Shown here: positions 2,438 through 22,244 of the stretch, one piece after another | How positions within the stretch are numbered: position 1 is the first letter of the stretch | Layout: every line of letters begins with the position of its first letter | DNA from: a virus | Reading direction: 5' to 3' (one strand) | Virus record (IMG/VR): IMGVR_UViG_3300043421_000112 | Coordinates: 1 to 22,295 of that record | Length of the DNA stretch: 22,295 nucleotides | The notes under the pieces: model-generated | The model's input: only the letters and a program-made list of their open reading frames with translations | Database searches by the model: none | What the model was told of the DNA's origin: nothing | Made by a program: the position numbers and the translations under genes

Positions 2438-3879
2438 CCTGCTGCGGGTACTTGATGGCGGCCGCTGGTGAGCAGCAGCTGCATGAGGTTCAGGGCGCCG
2501 CTGTTCTGCAGGCGCTGGAAGTCCGCGCCGATCTCCGCGAACACCTCGTCAGGCTTGTAGCCGCGCTGGCGCAGAGCCTCGGACGGACTCATCAGCCCGG
2601 CGCCGATGGCTTCGGTTTCCGCGCGCACGTCCTGGTACGGATTGACGTAGTCCCACCGCGGCGTGCTCCAGTCGACACCGACGTTGGCGATGCTGGCTTT
2701 GCCGGACAGGTCGACGGCCTCGAGGAACCATTGCCACAGCGGCTCACCGAGCCGCGGGATGATGACGAGCCATTGCATCTGCTCGCAGTCGTGGCGGAAA
2801 TCCATGCGCCGGATGCGCGCGCTCGAGAAGTTCACCTCGACCATGTCGCCGGTCATCGATTCGTACGGAACGCCCAAACCGGCGGCGATCAGATGCAGGT
2901 TGTGCTTGCAGTACTCGACGAACGCGCCGGCCGGCTTCGGGTCGATCGAGGTGACGTTGAGACCCGGCGGCAGCTGCGTGATTCCGCCACTTGGAAGCTC
3001 GCCGAGGTCGCCGTAGGGGCGATCGCCGGAGGCATACGTCGGCGCATTGGCGAGCGCCGAGACGTCACCGGACACGGCCAGGCCGAGACGCGTTTCGAGG
3101 TTCTTGCGCGCCAGCTCGGCATCTTCGTACAGCATTAGATCGCGGACACGCGCGATGATCGGCGCGAGGCGCGTGATGCCGCGGCCTTGGCCAGGTCGCG
3201 TCGGAGCAAACAGATGAATGATGTCGGCGGCCGGAATCGGCTTGCTGTCAAGGCGTACCGAGGTGCGCGTGGCGTCGCCAGGATGGGCACCGTAGAGCCA
3301 GTACGCGCGCGGCTTTCCGAGCACGTCGTACTCGATGCCGTTGACGATCTGTCCGCCGCCTGCAGCCTGGCCGGACTTCGTGCTATCGAGCCAGTCGATT
3401 TCGAGCAGCTGCACCTGCAGCGGTACCGGCAGCCCGTCTTCGACACGACGGCTGCGGCGGCGGATCAGAACCTCGCCATCCTGCTCCATCGCACGATAGG
3501 CGGCCGCCATCAGGCCATGGATGTCGAAAATCTCATCGGCATCGGCGACCTTCGCCCAATCGGTCCAGAGCGCATTGATGCGCTTGGCGTTGCGGCCGAT
3601 CGCGCGCGGCTCGATGCCGGTACCGATCGTCGCGCTGACGAGGGCCTGCAGGCCGCGGGTGATGTAGGGGACGTTCTGCACGAGCGAGCGGGCGCGGATG
3701 CGCAACTCGCGCGCGTCGGATGCATGATCGGAATTTGCGCTGGCACCGGCGCGGCGCGGGCGCCAGCCATCCGTGCGCGCTGCGCCTTCATAGGCACGAA
3801 CCAGCGCAGCGCGTGCCTGTGCGCGCTGTACGCCGCGGTGCGGCGAGAACCACCCGATGAGGCGATCGAGGACGTTCAC
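2434..3879 (-). CDS. Portal protein, lambda gpB type (phage_portal_2)
   Basis: A 481-aa portal protein, forming the dodecameric ring at the capsid vertex through which DNA enters and leaves. Family traits include an N-terminal segment with LIGWFSPHRG, the region RARSLVQNVPYITRGLQALVS, and the conserved block AAGLGVPYESMTGDMVEVNFSSARI typical of lambda-type portals. Length fits the family (about 480-530 aa). It starts with GTG at 3879, directly after the TAG of the gpW-like gene, and its TGA overlaps the ATG of the protease-capsid gene. The gene order terminase, gpW, portal, protease/capsid matches lambda-type head modules, which supports the call. Confidence 0.92.
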   Translation of the reverse strand: MNVLDRLIGWFSPHRGVQRAQARAALVRAYEGAARTDGWRPRRAGASANSDHASDARELRIRARSLVQNVPYITRGLQALVSATIGTGIEPRAIGRNAKRINALWTDWAKVADADEIFDIHGLMAAAYRAMEQDGEVLIRRRSRRVEDGLPVPLQVQLLEIDWLDSTKSGQAAGGGQIVNGIEYDVLGKPRAYWLYGAHPGDATRTSVRLDSKPIPAADIIHLFAPTRPGQGRGITRLAPIIARVRDLMLYEDAELARKNLETRLGLAVSGDVSALANAPTYASGDRPYGDLGELPSGGITQLPPGLNVTSIDPKPAGAFVEYCKHNLHLIAAGLGVPYESMTGDMVEVNFSSARIRRMDFRHDCEQMQWLVIIPRLGEPLWQWFLEAVDLSGKASIANVGVDWSTPRWDYVNPYQDVRAETEAIGAGLMSPSEALRQRGYKPDEVFAEIGADFQRLQNSGALNLMQLLLTSGRHQVPAAG

Positions 3880-4086
3880 CTAGTCGCCCCGCAACGTGGT
3901 GAACGTGAAGCGGCGCGTGGAACCTGATCCGCTGGCTGCGGCGATCTGCTGCGCGACATGCTGGCGAGCCGTCAGCAGCTCGCTCATGTCGCGGTAGCGC
4001 ACGCGGCGGCCGTCCATCTGCACCTCGAGCTGTTGCGAGGCGATGGCTTGGTCGAGGCGTTCGAGGTCGGCGTGCGTGAGGGCCAT
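3880..4086 (-). CDS. gpW-like head-tail joining protein
   Basis: A 68-aa protein beginning MALTHADLERLDQAIASQQLEVQMDGRRVRYRDMSELL, the pattern of lambda gpW: a short helical protein that binds the portal after packaging and prepares the head for tail attachment. gpW is 68 aa, so length matches exactly. The C-terminus FTFTTLRGD also fits. It sits immediately upstream of the portal gene, as in lambda, with no gap (TAG then GTG). A 55-bp spacer containing a strong hairpin separates it from the Mor-like gene upstream. Confidence 0.88.
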   Translation of the reverse strand: MALTHADLERLDQAIASQQLEVQMDGRRVRYRDMSELLTARQHVAQQIAAASGSGSTRRFTFTTLRGD

Positions 4087-4108
4087 GGATCAGCATCCTG
4101 CCGATCGA

Positions 4109-4140
4109 GTGCGGGCGAGTCTTGGGGAACTCGCCCGCAC
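4109..4140. repeat. 12-bp perfect stem-loop in the late operon
   Basis: GTGCGGGCGAGT (4109-4120) pairs perfectly with ACTCGCCCGCAC (4129-4140) around an 8-base loop. It fills the spacer between the Mor-like gene stop and the gpW start. No T-run follows on either strand, so it is not a canonical intrinsic terminator. It may be an attenuator or an mRNA processing or stability element separating terminase from head-gene expression. Confidence 0.7.
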
Positions 4141-4141
4141 G

Positions 4142-4498
4142 CTATCCCGCGCCGTTGCTCACTCTTTTTTCGCAAGCACCCGCGTCGCCATCGTCATCGA
4201 GCAATCGATAGAGCGTTCGGCGGTCCAGGCGGAAACGCATGCAGGTGGCGCGCACCGACTGGCCGGATGCGATGGCAGCGCGGATCGCGGCGACCGGATA
4301 GTTGACCGACGTCAGGCTGGCCGGGATGTAGAGGTCCTGGGCCGGGTACTCCTCCACCAGGTACGCCACGACCGCGGCGACGACGGGGCGGATATCGTCG
4401 CTGTCGCGGCGAAGGCGCAATGCAGCACCGATCGCAAGCTCCTCGGTGAGCTCATGGATGCGAGCGCGACGGCGGCGCGTGTTGCGGCCGCTCACCAC
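4142..4498 (-). CDS. Mor/C-family transcription regulator-like protein
   Basis: A 118-aa protein resembling the phage Mu Mor/C activator family. The segment DLYIPASLTSVNYPVAAIRAAIASGQSVRATCMRFRLDRRTLYRLLDD follows the Mor pattern: a VYIP-like strand, a short helix, then a C-terminal helix-turn-helix (residues ~75-105). Mor and C activate middle or late promoters. The N-terminus is strongly basic (NTRRRRARI). The GTG at 4498 (or 4495) overlaps the TerL stop, implying translational coupling. A regulator between terminase and gpW is unusual; it might activate the late or head transcript or have been adapted to packaging. The family call is by pattern recognition and the target is unknown. Confidence 0.62.
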   Translation of the reverse strand: MVSGRNTRRRRARIHELTEELAIGAALRLRRDSDDIRPVVAAVVAYLVEEYPAQDLYIPASLTSVNYPVAAIRAAIASGQSVRATCMRFRLDRRTLYRLLDDDGDAGACEKRVSNGAG

Positions 4499-6465
4499 TG
4501 ACGCCTCATTGGCGGCGCTACTCGCGACGCCTGCGGCGGCGGCGGCGGTGGTAGCGGATGGGCCGGATCCGCGCTCTTTGTTTCACGCGGAACACTCGCC
4601 TGCGTTCCACGCGCGGCGGCGTCGCTGAACAGGTCGACGTGCGCGGGTTCGTACACCGCCTCGAGCGCCGTCCAGTCGGCGTCGCGCTTTTTGTGCAGCG
4701 CTACGTGCGGGTGCAGCGCGGCGGCGTAGGCGTAGACCAGGCAGTCGAGCGCTTCGTTGCGGCGGCCTTTGGTCTTCACCCAGCGCTTGCGGCGCTCGTC
4801 GAATTTCTCGGCAGTGAGCTGGTCGAAGAATTCCTCCGGCGTGTCCTCGGCGAAGCGGAAATAGCGCTGGTCCGCCTCGCGCTCGCCGTCGGCGACGAGG
4901 CGGCCGATCAGCGTGTTCTTGGCAGTGTCGGTGCCGACCGGCCACAGCCGCACGCCGTTGCGGATGACGCGGCCGTTCCAACGCACGTCCTGTTCGCTGA
5001 AGCGGTGCACGATCTGCTTGCCGCCCGTGCTGAGGCCCTTGACGGCCATCACCGGATGACGCGTGCGGCGCACGTAGGCGTACACCTCGTGCGTCCAGTT
5101 GCCGGAGTCGATCGCCATCATCATGGGGCGCATCGACACGCCGTAGCGGTTGACGAGGGCGCTCTCCATGACGCCATCGAGCATGTCGTAATCCTCGATC
5201 CTGGTCGGGTCGGCCGGGAGCGCGACGACGTCGACCAGCCAGCAGCGCTCGCCGCGGCCCCAGCCGTAGATGGACACCTCGAACCGGTTGGCCTGGACGT
5301 CGACGCCGACCGTGAGCAGCAGCACGCCAGGTGGCACATGGCCGAGCTGGTAGCCGCTGCCATCGGCGCGGCGAGCGACCTCGGATGCCTCGACGCGCAT
5401 CGTCGCGCTGTCGTATGTCTCGCCGAGGATGGTGTTGTGGAACGTCACCTCGAGGTCTGGATCGCGCTTCGCTTCCTCGCGCATCTGCGCGATCTCGCGC
5501 CACGAGTAGCCGACGCCGAGCGGCGAGTAGGCCGCCCAGATGTGGTAGCTGCGGTGCAGCGGGTCGGCGCTGGTCGCGGTGGCGATCCAGCGGCCGGCGG
5601 CGAGCATCTCGGTTTTGTGGTGCTCGGCGATCAGCGCGTTGCAGGCCTTCGACTCGCAGCGGAACTCACCGTCGTCGGTGAGGTTTTCGATGCGCAGCAC
5701 CTGCTCGTGGCCACAGCACGGGCACGGCACGTGGTAGCGGCGTTGGTCGCCAGCGATGAAGCCGGCTTCGATCTTGCTGTTGCCCTTGACCGTTGGTGTG
5801 CTGACGCGGCCGATCTTGCGGCGAGAGAACGTCGAGGTGCGGCGCTCCGCAAGCTCGAGCGCGCTGCCCTGGTCGTTGAGGTCGTCCTCGTACTCGTCGA
5901 CCTCGTCGGCGAGCAGCACTTTCACCGGCATCGAGCGCAGGCCGCTGGACGAGTTCGCGCCAGTGATCGAGAGTACGCCGCCGGTGAAGCCCTTCAGCAG
6001 CGTGGTGTTGTCGGAGTCGCGCGCGCGGGCCGGCGCGACCTTTCCCTCGAAGCACGGCATCTCTTCGAGCATCGGCGCGAGGCGCTGCTTGCTCCACAGC
6101 TCGGCCAGGCCGAGCGTTGGCATCAGCACCATCATCGGCCCGGGTGCGTGGTCGATGACGTAGCCGGCGACGTTGTTCAGCACCTCGGTACCGCCTACCT
6201 GCGTCGACTTCATGAAGTCGACTTCGCGTATCGGCGAGTGCGCGCTGAAGCAATCCATGATCTCGCGGAGGTACGGGAAGCGATCCGTGCGCCACGGGCC
6301 CGGCTCAGCACCGGCCTTGCGCGAGATGATGCGGTGCGCGTCCGCCCACTCGCTCGGCGTCATCGGCGGCGGCAGCGACCAGCCGCTGCACCACGCGCCG
6401 GCGAACACCTCGCCGCCGTCGACGAGGTGCTCGGCCGGATCGTAGGTGCCGGCGAGCAGCGTCAT
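4492..6465 (-). CDS. Terminase large subunit, lambda gpA type
   Basis: A 657-aa packaging motor and nuclease. The N-terminal ATPase has a Walker A-like KSTQVGGT (residues 86-93) and a Walker B VLLADEVDE (183-191). A zinc-binding insertion has CPCC (248-251) and C270/C275. The C-terminal RNase H-like nuclease begins at TVGVDVQ (385-391), with D389 a likely metal ligand. Length and order match GpA-family terminases, which cut DNA at cos sites in lambda, so cos packaging is possible though no cos site was identified. It overlaps TerS by 4 bases and the Mor-like gene by 7. The proline-rich C-terminus (PLPPPPPPQASRV) is probably a flexible portal-contacting tail. Confidence 0.95.
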   Translation of the reverse strand: MTLLAGTYDPAEHLVDGGEVFAGAWCSGWSLPPPMTPSEWADAHRIISRKAGAEPGPWRTDRFPYLREIMDCFSAHSPIREVDFMKSTQVGGTEVLNNVAGYVIDHAPGPMMVLMPTLGLAELWSKQRLAPMLEEMPCFEGKVAPARARDSDNTTLLKGFTGGVLSITGANSSSGLRSMPVKVLLADEVDEYEDDLNDQGSALELAERRTSTFSRRKIGRVSTPTVKGNSKIEAGFIAGDQRRYHVPCPCCGHEQVLRIENLTDDGEFRCESKACNALIAEHHKTEMLAAGRWIATATSADPLHRSYHIWAAYSPLGVGYSWREIAQMREEAKRDPDLEVTFHNTILGETYDSATMRVEASEVARRADGSGYQLGHVPPGVLLLTVGVDVQANRFEVSIYGWGRGERCWLVDVVALPADPTRIEDYDMLDGVMESALVNRYGVSMRPMMMAIDSGNWTHEVYAYVRRTRHPVMAVKGLSTGGKQIVHRFSEQDVRWNGRVIRNGVRLWPVGTDTAKNTLIGRLVADGEREADQRYFRFAEDTPEEFFDQLTAEKFDERRKRWVKTKGRRNEALDCLVYAYAAALHPHVALHKKRDADWTALEAVYEPAHVDLFSDAAARGTQASVPRETKSADPAHPLPPPPPPQASRVAPPMRRQW

Positions 6466-7022: not shown

Positions 7023-7150
7023 TTCACCCTGTTAACTGCACTGGTTTCACATGCAACGCACTGATTAACCAAACCATTCCATCTATCGCTAGCGGAAAAT
7101 TGCGGCCTAGGTACCCGCGTGCTGCGAGGCTGGGGAGGACCCGTGCCCCG

Positions 7151-19456: not shown

Positions 19457-20131
19457 ATGGCCAGCAAGCCGACGAAGAGCACCAAGCCGAAGCCGAAACC
19501 CGCTCCGACCCGCGCGCGCCGCACCACCCGCACGCGCTCCGCAGCCACCGAGCAGCGCAGGTTCCTCGCCGCTGACATCGCCGCCGCGACGCTCGTCGGC
19601 TACCGTGAGGGCCGCGCCGCCACGCTCGCCGAGTCGATCACCGCGACATTGAGCGCGAGCCCGCTGGCGCTCGAGCTCGCCGCGCCGTCCGCGCCGATCA
19701 AGATCATCGCTGACGGCACGCACTGCGCCGCCGGCGACCCTCGTACCGACCACGTCGCCGTACTGCTGCCGGACATCGGCCTCATGATCCACCCCGTCTC
19801 GCTCGGCAACGGCAACCAGCCGTGGTCCTCGTGCGACGCACTCTGCCGCGACCTGCGCGTGCTCGGCCACGCCGACTGGCAGCTCGCCAGCCGCGAGCAT
19901 TGGAACCACATCCTCGACCTCACCCGCCACTCGCCCGCCGTCGACACCAGCCTCTATCCGGGCATCAAGCCAGGATGGCACTGGACCAGCACGCCATGCG
20001 CCTGGTCGAGCAAGGACGCGGCGGGCGTGTCGGCCGCCGCGTGGTACGTCGATACCCACGGCGGCAGCGTCTTCAGCAGCCACCGCGACGACTACGGGTT
20101 CGCGTTGGCCGTCCGCCGCGTCGGTCAGTAG
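19457..20131 (+). CDS. DUF1566/Lcl_C-domain protein, paralog 1
   Basis: A 224-aa protein. The N-terminal ~35 residues are Lys/Pro/Arg-rich and probably disordered. Residues ~135-224 form a DUF1566 (Lcl C-terminal-like) domain: DWQLASREHWNHILDLTRHSPAVDTSLYP, then WHWTSTPCAWSSKDAAG, AAAWYV and a C-terminal FALAVRRVGQ. Such domains resemble C-type-lectin-like surface or ligand-binding folds. Codons 199-213 (20051-20095) differ sharply from the paralog at 20162 while both flanks are near-identical. GGAG lies before the ATG. The position between early operon and excisionase suggests a phage accessory protein; its ligand is unknown. Confidence 0.8.
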   Translation: MASKPTKSTKPKPKPAPTRARRTTRTRSAATEQRRFLAADIAAATLVGYREGRAATLAESITATLSASPLALELAAPSAPIKIIADGTHCAAGDPRTDHVAVLLPDIGLMIHPVSLGNGNQPWSSCDALCRDLRVLGHADWQLASREHWNHILDLTRHSPAVDTSLYPGIKPGWHWTSTPCAWSSKDAAGVSAAAWYVDTHGGSVFSSHRDDYGFALAVRRVGQ

Positions 20132-20752
20132 TTAGCCATTTGCCAACCCAGGGAGAACACGATGCGCACCATCACCATGATCAAGATCGGCGCCGACGGC
20201 CAGCACCTGCCCGCGGACGCCACCGACCACGCCGCCGTGCTGCTGCCCGACCACGGGCTGATGTTCACCGCGCGCGTCATCAACGCCGAGGAGGCGCCGC
20301 AGCTCGACCTCGAGCAGCAGTGCACTCAGCTCACCTGCGCCGGCTTCACCGACTGGACGATGCCGGAGATCGACCAGCTCGAGCTCATCATCGATCGCAC
20401 GCGCCACTCGCCCGCGCTGAACACCGATTTCTTCCTCGACATCCCGCTCGACTGGCTGTGGAGCAAGACGCCGTGCGCCTGGTCGAGCAAGGACGCGGCG
20501 GGCGTGTCGGCCGCCGCGTGGTACGTCTCTTCCCACTACGGCCACGTCGGCAGCTACCACCGCGGCAACGGGTTCGCGTTGGCCGTCCGCCGCGTCGGTC
20601 AGTAGTTAGCCATTTGCCAACCAGGGAGAACACGATGCGCACCATCACCATGATCAAGATCGGCGCCGACGGCCAGCACCTGCCCGCGGACGCCACCGAC
20701 CACGCCGCCGTGCTGCTGCCCGACCACGGGCTGATGTTCACCGCGCGCGTCA
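19997..20752 (+). repeat. ~474-bp tandem duplication with a hypervariable core
   Basis: Block 19997-20050 equals 20474-20527 (54 bp identical), and 20096-20279 equals 20570-20752 apart from one base (CCC against CC in the spacer). Between them lie the variable segments 20051-20095 (45 bp) and 20528-20569 (42 bp). The second repeat unit is cut at 20752. The unit joins the 3' end of one DUF1566 gene to the 5' end of the next, as produced by unequal crossing-over. Confidence 0.85.
20162..20605 (+). CDS. DUF1566/Lcl_C-domain protein, paralog 2
   Basis: A 147-aa protein without the basic N-terminal tail. It starts MRTITMIKIGADGQHLPADATDHAAVLLPDHGLMFTARV and ends in the same DUF1566 block: FTDWTMPEIDQLELIIDRTRHSPALNTDFF, WLWSKTPCAWSSKDAAG, AAAWYV, FALAVRRVGQ. 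Codons 123-136 (20528-20569) form the variable segment. The 54 bases before and 36 coding bases after this segment match paralog 1 exactly. GGGAG ribosome site upstream. Its own 5' end is duplicated again downstream at 20635. A short N-terminal beta domain in front of the lectin-like part is a common arrangement for this family. Confidence 0.8.
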   Translation: MRTITMIKIGADGQHLPADATDHAAVLLPDHGLMFTARVINAEEAPQLDLEQQCTQLTCAGFTDWTMPEIDQLELIIDRTRHSPALNTDFFLDIPLDWLWSKTPCAWSSKDAAGVSAAAWYVSSHYGHVGSYHRGNGFALAVRRVGQ

Positions 20753-20778
20753 GCGAGTGCGGAGTGGCGGAGGGGTAA
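20635..20778 (+). pseudogene. Truncated third DUF1566 paralog
   Basis: A 47-codon remnant identical to the first 39 codons of paralog 2, then diverging into SECGVAEG and a TAA. The whole DUF1566 domain is missing. The ribosome site and ATG are intact, so a short peptide may still be made. Its TAA overlaps the excisionase ATG (TAATG), so its main present role may be translational coupling of excisionase. It is the broken end of the tandem duplication. Confidence 0.75.
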
Positions 20779-20975
20779 TGCAACTGATCACCCCGCCAGC
20801 CTGGGCCGAAAAATACTTCGCCGAAGGCAGCCGGCCGGCGGAAACGACCCTGCGCCGTTGGATGCAGACCGGCGCAGTGCCGGCGCGCAAGATCGGCGGA
20901 AGCTGGTTCATCGACGAACACGCCTGGCTGTCCGGCGGGGATGATCTGGTGGCGCGCGTACTGCAGGCGGGGTAG
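20778..20975 (+). CDS. xis: Excisionase / helix-turn-helix directionality factor
   Basis: A 65-aa protein, MQLITPPAWAEKYFAEGSRPAETTLRRWMQTGAVPARKIGGSWFIDEHAWLSGGDDLVARVLQAG. This is the MerR-like winged-helix of lambda-type excisionases: helix AEKYF, recognition helix ETTLRRWMQTGAVPARKIGG and wing SWFIDEHAWL. It would bend att DNA and push recombination toward excision. The ATG at 20778 shares a base with the preceding TAA and has a GGAGGGG ribosome site. It ends 3 bases before the integrase start, as in a xis-int pair. Confidence 0.85.
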   Translation: MQLITPPAWAEKYFAEGSRPAETTLRRWMQTGAVPARKIGGSWFIDEHAWLSGGDDLVARVLQAG

Positions 20976-20978
20976 CGT

Positions 20979-22097
20979 ATGGGCATCATGGGGCGACCAC
21001 GATCGAGCGCGCGGGCCGGCTGGCCGGACAACCTCTACACGTGCAAGGACGGCTACAAGTACCGGCATCCGATCAGCCGCAAGGACACGTGGATGGGCAA
21101 GGATCGCGCGCGCGCGTTCGAAGCCGCGCGCAAGCTCAACGCGCTGCTGACGCCCGGCAACGACCTCGTCGGCCGCGTCGTGGCGAAGTCGGAAACGATC
21201 GCCGACGCGATCAAGGTGTTCCGCACCGACGACATGCCGGGCCGCAAGTGGGCGGCGAAAACGGCCGATCTGTACGGCAACATCCTCAAGCGCATCGAGG
21301 CGCACATCGGCGAACGCGAAGTCGCCGGCGTCACCGTGCGCGACTGCGCCACCTTCGTGCGCGAAGTCACCACCTCGCAGCGCGCGCGGCAGCAGTTCCG
21401 CCTCGCGCTCACGTGGGTGCTCGCGTGCGCGGTCGAGGAGGGCTGGATCGACACCAACCCGGCCCTGCAGACGCGCAAGGCAAACTACGAGCGCCAGCGC
21501 GAGCGATTGTTGAAACCGGTCTACGACGCCATCTGGCAGCACGCGCCGGGCTGGCTGCGCAACGCGATGGACCTCAGCCTGCTCACGCTGCTGCGCCGCG
21601 AAGACGTCGTTTGCGCGCGCTTCGAGGACGTGCGCGAGAACAAGCTGCACGTGATCCCCGGCAAGACTGAGGGCACCACCGGCGCGCGCCTGCGCATCGC
21701 GCTCGACGGCGACCTAGCCGCGGTCATCGCCCGCTGCCGCGACAACATCGTCTCGCCCTACCTGATCCACCGCCTGCCGGAAAAGGCGCGCCCCACGAAC
21801 ATGCGTGCGAAGACGCGGCTACACCACACCCAAGTGCTGCCAGAGCAACTCTCCCGCGCGTTCGCCGACACCCGTGACGCCGCGCTGGCCGCGCACCCCG
21901 GCCTGGTCGGCGACAACCCGCCCACGTTCCACGAAATCCGCAGCCTCGGCGGTGCCCTGCTGCGCGACGCCGGCTGGACCGACGTCCAGGTGCAAGCGCT
22001 GATGGCGCACTCCGACGTCGACATGACCCGGCACTATCTCGAAGGCCATGAAGCCCCGTGGACCGACGTCAAGACCGGCCTGTCGCTGCAGCGATAG
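20979..22097 (+). CDS. int: Tyrosine-family site-specific integrase
   Basis: A 372-aa integrase that recombines attP with attB. It has an N-terminal arm-binding region (~1-60, GRPRSSARAGWPDNLY and a basic patch), a SAM-like core-binding domain (~70-165) and a catalytic domain with R206/R207 (LLRRED), K229, H318 and R321 (HEIR), H344 and nucleophile Y353 (MAHSDVDMTRHYL). Length is typical. ATG 20979 is chosen; ATG 20988 is possible. The tRNA-Pro 3' fragment lies 73 bases after the stop, the usual int-att arrangement. It appears intact and likely active. Confidence 0.95.
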   Translation: MGIMGRPRSSARAGWPDNLYTCKDGYKYRHPISRKDTWMGKDRARAFEAARKLNALLTPGNDLVGRVVAKSETIADAIKVFRTDDMPGRKWAAKTADLYGNILKRIEAHIGEREVAGVTVRDCATFVREVTTSQRARQQFRLALTWVLACAVEEGWIDTNPALQTRKANYERQRERLLKPVYDAIWQHAPGWLRNAMDLSLLTLLRREDVVCARFEDVRENKLHVIPGKTEGTTGARLRIALDGDLAAVIARCRDNIVSPYLIHRLPEKARPTNMRAKTRLHHTQVLPEQLSRAFADTRDAALAAHPGLVGDNPPTFHEIRSLGGALLRDAGWTDVQVQALMAHSDVDMTRHYLEGHEAPWTDVKTGLSLQR

Positions 22098-22142: not shown

Positions 22143-22244
22143 GCAAGCTATTGAAGTACAAGCGTAAAATGGTCGGGGCGGCGGGATTCGAACCCACGAC
22201 CCCCTGCCCCCCAGGCACCGGCCGTCACAAACGCAAACTATTGA
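22143..22244. other. attP: Phage attachment site (attP-like) with flanking arm repeats
   Basis: The core 22170-22217 is the minus-strand 3' part of a tRNA-Pro(GGG) gene: CCA end, acceptor 3' strand, full T arm (GTGGG TTCGAAT CCCGC), variable loop, 3' anticodon stem GCAGG and loop with GGG. Flanking it are direct repeats GCAAGCTATTGA (22143-22154) and GCAAACTATTGA (22233-22244), one mismatch apart, resembling integrase arm sites. The D arm and 5' acceptor strand are absent to the right. Phage-like sequence on both sides favours attP over a host junction. Confidence 0.65.

Follow-up and report, generated by a model that had tools for sequence, protein, structure and literature searches.

The DNA analyzed in this work (the window) corresponds to an entire virus record of 22,295 bases, with a GC content of 68%; it is a fragment of a phage genome that carries head and packaging genes on its left side and the excisionase (xis) and integrase (int) genes on its right side, and no tail genes were seen in it. 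Adjoining the excisionase and integrase genes, and far from the structural genes, there are two consecutive genes, here called a and b, whose products carry the Lcl_C (DUF1566) domain; both score above the curated cut-off of this Pfam family (PF07603, 34.9 bits). Each gene ends in a variable repeat (VR1 in a, VR2 in b), and b is followed by the cut beginning of a third copy, b'. The coordinates of these features are collected in Table 1. Just beyond the integrase gene, the minus strand at 22168-22215 resembles a tRNA-Pro gene of which only the 3' half is present; ARAGORN finds no whole tRNA near this right end, and the 48-mer is absent from four related genomes. This stretch may be the attP core of a phage in its non-integrated state.

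Table 1. Features of the target locus and of the adjoining integration genes in the window.
Feature	Position	Strand	Basis
Target gene a, 224 aa, C-terminal Lcl_C (DUF1566) domain with variable repeat 1	19457..20131	+	Pfam PF07603, 50.2 bits
5' flank of VR1	19997..20050	+	54 bases, the same as 20474-20527; in relatives (e.g. L007) template and VRs likewise share the sequence directly before the variable codons
VR1 variable segment (15 codons, almost all of them NNC)	20051..20095	+	alignment, template comparison
3' constant end of VR1, IMH-like, ends GGTCAG	20096..20131	+	exact 23-mer in both VRs and in the TR of L007
Target gene b, 147 aa, Lcl_C protein with variable repeat 2	20162..20605	+	Pfam PF07603, 56.6 bits
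5' flank of VR2	20474..20527	+	same bases as 19997-20050
VR2 variable segment (14 codons, short of VR1 by one in the AAC run)	20528..20569	+	alignment, template comparison
3' constant end of VR2, likewise ending GGTCAG	20570..20605	+	flank search, family CAG/GAG comparison
Third target copy b', cut after its first 118 bases	20635..20752	+	matches the beginning of gene b without a difference; ends at 20752/20753
Junction and presumed xis ribosome-binding region	20753..20777	+	site of Avd-TR-RT in L058, L158, L162 (gene order)
Excisionase (HTH) gene	20778..20975	+	PHROG 629 excisionase, E 2.6e-10; 49-63% identical to xis of relatives
Tyrosine integrase gene	20979..22097	+	Pfam PF00589, PHROG 1

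When genes a and b were aligned within the window, the 5' flanks showed no difference over their 54 bases, and the 45- and 42-bp segments that follow differ by one codon indel, placed within a run of AAC codons, and by 13 substitutions. Identity resumes at the 3' constant ends and runs for 184 and 183 bases with a 1-base indel, to 20279 and 20752 respectively; this stretch takes in 36 coding bases and the stop codons, crosses the intergenic region and enters the next gene copy at its start. The counts given in the initial annotation, including the more than 230 bp of flanking duplicate that differ by a single base, were exact on realignment. The substitutions fall at codon positions 1, 2 and 3 in the proportion 7/6/0, and the variable codons are all NNC with GAT/TCT as the sole exception, as that annotation had also stated. 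In contrast, the differences between both paralogues upstream of 19997 are distributed as 48/45/44, with none in the 54-bp flank; the skew of the variable segment against the upstream part of the pair is significant (Fisher p = 0.011). Gene conversion is common between tandem paralogues, and the same picture could in principle be reached with no retroelement if conversion had homogenised the flanks and diversifying selection had altered the binding residues, more so given that a third-position C is favoured in DNA of such GC content; however, third-position changes are completely missing from the segment when 44 are present upstream.

The initial annotation had proposed that a and b are targets of a diversity-generating retroelement (DGR) in which AAC codons of the template give rise to NNC codons, and this proposal is borne out by the relatives of the locus, which have the template, an adjacent reverse transcriptase (RT) and Avd, and mutation restricted to A. 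A search with the target protein gave three phage contigs at 51-54% identity, and no match among annotated phages; the exact 23-mer of the constant 3' flank gave a fourth contig (L007) with three copies of it, and all four contigs encode a reverse transcriptase. Two of the three copies in L007 are within target genes, and the third is the template repeat (TR), located between Avd and RT at 7029-7109 (AACGTCAATTTCAACAACGGCAACGTCAACAACAACCACCGCAACAACAAC...) and read as GCGTGG AAC GTC AAT TTC AAC AAC GGC AAC GTC AAC AAC AAC CAC CGC AAC AAC AAC GGGTTCGCG... A degenerate pattern of the template found 46 viral contigs, and close relatives in genome contigs, missed by the single-protein query, were recovered only by a query made from an alignment. 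In this way, 40-odd phages and prophages of Lysobacteraceae (Stenotrophomonas/Xanthomonas group) were found to have the same target pair, with Avd, an AAC-rich template repeat and a DGR-type RT downstream of it. Gene a is homologous to the first target gene of these relatives, and the product of gene b is 51-61% identical to the targets directly upstream of Avd-RT. Their RTs show the DGR motif IGNLSSQ together with YVDD, and their Avd matches bAvd (PF22296) with an E value of 4e-6, a match that is nevertheless under the Pfam cut-off. Given that the named hosts are Stenotrophomonas, Xanthomonas melonis and an unclassified Lysobacteraceae MAG, the host of the window phage probably belongs to the Lysobacteraceae as well.

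When each locus was aligned to its own template, the 88 distinct VRs of the relatives had changes at 1280 of 2010 template adenines (64%) and at 3 of 3534 other bases (0.08%), an adenine-restricted pattern that is the signature of mutagenic retrohoming. Throughout the family the VRs end in GGTCAG and the TRs in GGTGAG, and the VRs reach the 3' end of the gene at the stop codon. A 5-bp GGTCA/TGGCC hairpin can be drawn past the VR in many relatives and is weak in the window, and its energies are no better than those of shuffled sequences. The family also shows other arrangements. In L001 (10889-12238) and most of the template-bearing relatives, the template repeat lies upstream of the RT coding sequence and in frame with it; the RT open reading frame continues through the template and could bear a template-encoded N-terminal extension. 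In several relatives (L010, L018, L022, L031, L051, L129 and others) an extra Lcl_C target that is not part of the tandem pair is found upstream of the template, at a distance of around 5-6 kb, and these extra targets show A-specific changes from the same template.

The segments of the window were compared with the templates of these relatives, from which the actual template of the window was inferred. Over 90 bases, VR1 departs from the template of L007 at just 4 of the 66 positions that are not A, and one of the four is the expected TR/VR-specific base of GAG/CAG. The differences between VR1 and VR2 coincide with adenines of the consensus template, the usual one in the family, in 12 of 13 cases (p = 5e-4); the thirteenth is located in codon 4, and if this codon is read as ACC, as it is in the template of L032, all 13 fall on adenines (p = 6e-5). 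The first codon of both window VRs is TAC, and the template of another relative, L221, likewise starts TAC GTC AAC. The flank of the window VRs includes an insertion of 7 codons (SKDAAGV), and no template with this insertion was seen among those of the relatives. Two reservations of the initial annotation could be answered: the bias to C at third positions does not weaken the argument, given that the non-A positions of the window VRs, third-position C included, match the template, and the codon indel, regarded as atypical of DGRs, agrees with the slippage on AAC repeats by multiples of three that has been proposed for DGR RTs (PMC12875486). Ordinary divergence combined with codon bias was rejected on the third-position and adenine tests. 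The placement of the differences on the adenines of the family template, and the strong preference for A seen in relatives that have both template and RT, also make gene conversion and selection acting with no retroelement extremely improbable.

The structure model of the b protein (pLDDT 94.7) has a C-type-lectin fold; it aligns with the C-terminal domain of Legionella Lcl with a Z of 12.1 (rmsd 2.4 over 111) and with variants of Mtd, the target of the BPP-1 DGR, with Z values of 7.6-8.0. The variable residues lie near the C-terminus of the predicted C-type-lectin-fold products, and a and b may be binding proteins with a variable ligand surface. No signal peptide was evident on reading the sequences of both targets.

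The initial annotation reported neither an RT nor a template repeat in the window, and this was confirmed: in the 22.3-kb record there is no match to RVT_1 or to an HMM of the RTs of the relatives, the [LIVMFY]GxxxSQ motif with RT context is absent, and the constant 3' flank, searched with up to 3 mismatches, occurs just twice, at both VRs. An HMM of the Avd of the relatives likewise gave no match in the record. The initial annotation had named a lack of RT and template from the whole genome as what would speak against a retroelement; both are missing from the record, itself a fragment, and both are present in the relatives. Since the record is incomplete and has a deletion-like junction at the site of the cassette, their absence bears on the present activity of the system and not on the origin of the segments.

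This junction becomes apparent from the gene order. Among the close relatives, wherever the contig extends beyond gene b, Avd is found within a few hundred bases and is followed by RT. In three relatives (L058, L158 and L162, two of which were recovered via the integrase of the window) the order is a-b-Avd-RT-xis-int, with 0.2-2.5 kb from RT to xis, whereas the order in the window is a-b-b'(cut)-xis-int. The 65-bp block upstream of b' is also identical to that of gene b except for 1 base, and a tblastn search with gene b matched 20635-20751 at 100%. The integrase of the window is 64-69% identical to 17 phage integrases, and two of these belong to phages with a complete DGR at the same place. 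In L221 (genome G359), positions 2470-5691 cover a tandem of three Lcl_C targets followed by Avd, the template and RT; the existence of this three-target array with an intact cassette indicates that a third target copy is natural.

We consider it likely that the VRs of the window were written by a DGR, that its Avd-template-RT block was lost recently, most probably by deletion, and that a and b are diversified targets now orphaned in cis. In the proposed mechanism, the RT together with Avd would copy an AAC-rich template RNA, misincorporating opposite its adenines, and the cDNA would replace the 3' ends of both target genes, bringing the shared flank along. In the most parsimonious scenario, a single deletion from a three-target array, with endpoints inside the third tandem target and just upstream of the excisionase gene, would then have removed the 3' part of this target, Avd, the template and RT. 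Homing, and likewise the loss of the cassette, would be recent because the flanks of the VRs are still perfectly identical, and the system would be inactive at present. What the sequences show directly is the mutation pattern, its agreement with the template family, the presence of the cassette in relatives, its absence from the window and the truncated copy at its site; deletion as the cause, its recency, present inactivity and a binding function are inferred. The mechanism itself is already known, and the RT-less state is the one unusual part of this locus.

Two other readings of the missing cassette were weighed. An intact Avd-template-RT block could be located in the unsequenced part of the phage and act on the targets from a distance: the record, a fragment of 22.3 kb, lacks tail genes, further targets are often 3-6 kb from the template in this family, so that distance action within one genome does occur, and the perfect identity of the flanks suggests recent activity. 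However, wherever the context is intact in a close relative, gene b is directly followed by the cassette, a second, distant cassette was not seen in them, and the window has a truncated target exactly at the usual place of the cassette; we regard this possibility as unlikely. The cassette could also have been dropped from the contig by an assembler jump across a repeat, the true order being a-b-c-Avd-TR-RT-...-xis-int. The 184-bp block 20096-20279 is repeated at 20570-20752 with one 1-base indel, and the break at 20752 coincides with the end of this near-identical repeat, the kind of place at which a short-read assembly may jump; four contigs of the family (L056, L064, L069 and L090) show that assemblies do break at these repeats, three of them ending right at or after gene b and the fourth inside gene b before the VR. 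Nevertheless, the sequence from 20753 on is unique in the window, an artefact of this kind requires a second truncated copy of the block just upstream of xis, and at the junction xis retains a plausible ribosome-binding region and its start codon, which together make an assembly error decidedly unlikely.

Under the favored deletion, the orphaned targets would either be frozen or be rewritable only by a related DGR acting in trans in the same cell, and for now the former seems the more likely. It has been reported that the BPP-1 DGR functions in E. coli when supplied on a separate plasmid (PMC12875486). A more elaborate proposal, that the phage discarded its mutator and behaves as a retroelement cheater whose targets are re-diversified by DGRs that related prophages carry within the same host, appears highly improbable. 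Targets without an RT were also found elsewhere. Related targets are present in 18 of 395 Lysobacteraceae genomes, and in two of these 18 (G212 and G251, searched as whole genomes) there is no match to an L007-like RT; they hold single DGR-type Lcl_C targets (L219 and L220), one of which adjoins a DNA methyltransferase. In a 66-kb phage record (L108, 4755-5772) two adjacent Lcl_C genes have shared flanks and VR-like NNC/NNT differences. Next to them come a CsrA-like gene and a helicase, and a search of that record gave no RT. Another phage contig (L093), considered as a second RT-less phage relative, was dropped given that it has no VR-type repeat nearby. If the cheater proposal were true, the RT-less targets of both Lysobacteraceae genomes and of the 66-kb phage record would be further cases of it.

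In this locus the codon positions of two genes alone pointed to retroelement mutagenesis with no retroelement present, and footprints of this kind could be used to find orphaned targets that are missed by RT-based surveys. The family offers a set of natural experiments, with two or three targets, with and without the cassette, and placed beside the integrase rather than the tail genes; it bears on the ligands of non-tail DGR targets in temperate phages and on the fate of these targets once diversification stops.

Among the known systems, the DGR of Stenotrophomonas sp. SKA14 has been reported to include two TRs and six VRs, five of which are in DUF1566 proteins (PMC6642488). The prophage DGRs of the Stenotrophomonas/Xanthomonas group (L007 and L128-L130 in this work) have in common with the window multiple DUF1566/Lcl_C targets, the AAC-rich template family and the A-specific changes. 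In contrast to the a-b-Avd-TR-RT order of the loci examined in this group, the window has no Avd, template or RT beside its targets and has a truncated third target adjoining xis-int; the 7-codon insertion in the VR flank is a further difference. In Thiohalocapsa PB-PSB1, incomplete DGR loci and remote targets have been described, some of them argued to be diversified in trans (PMC10907252). The targets of the window are similar in that they lack a complete cassette of their own; nonetheless, PB-PSB1 is a bacterial chromosome with other DGRs, whereas the window is a phage fragment for which no donor template is known. Finally, the DGR of the Bordetella phage BPP-1, with its target Mtd, resembles that of the window in its mechanism, in the C-terminal location of the VR, in the IMH/IMH*-like 3' end and in the C-type-lectin fold of the target; in contrast, Mtd is a tail receptor-binding protein, and the targets of the window lie beside the integrase, distant from the structural genes.
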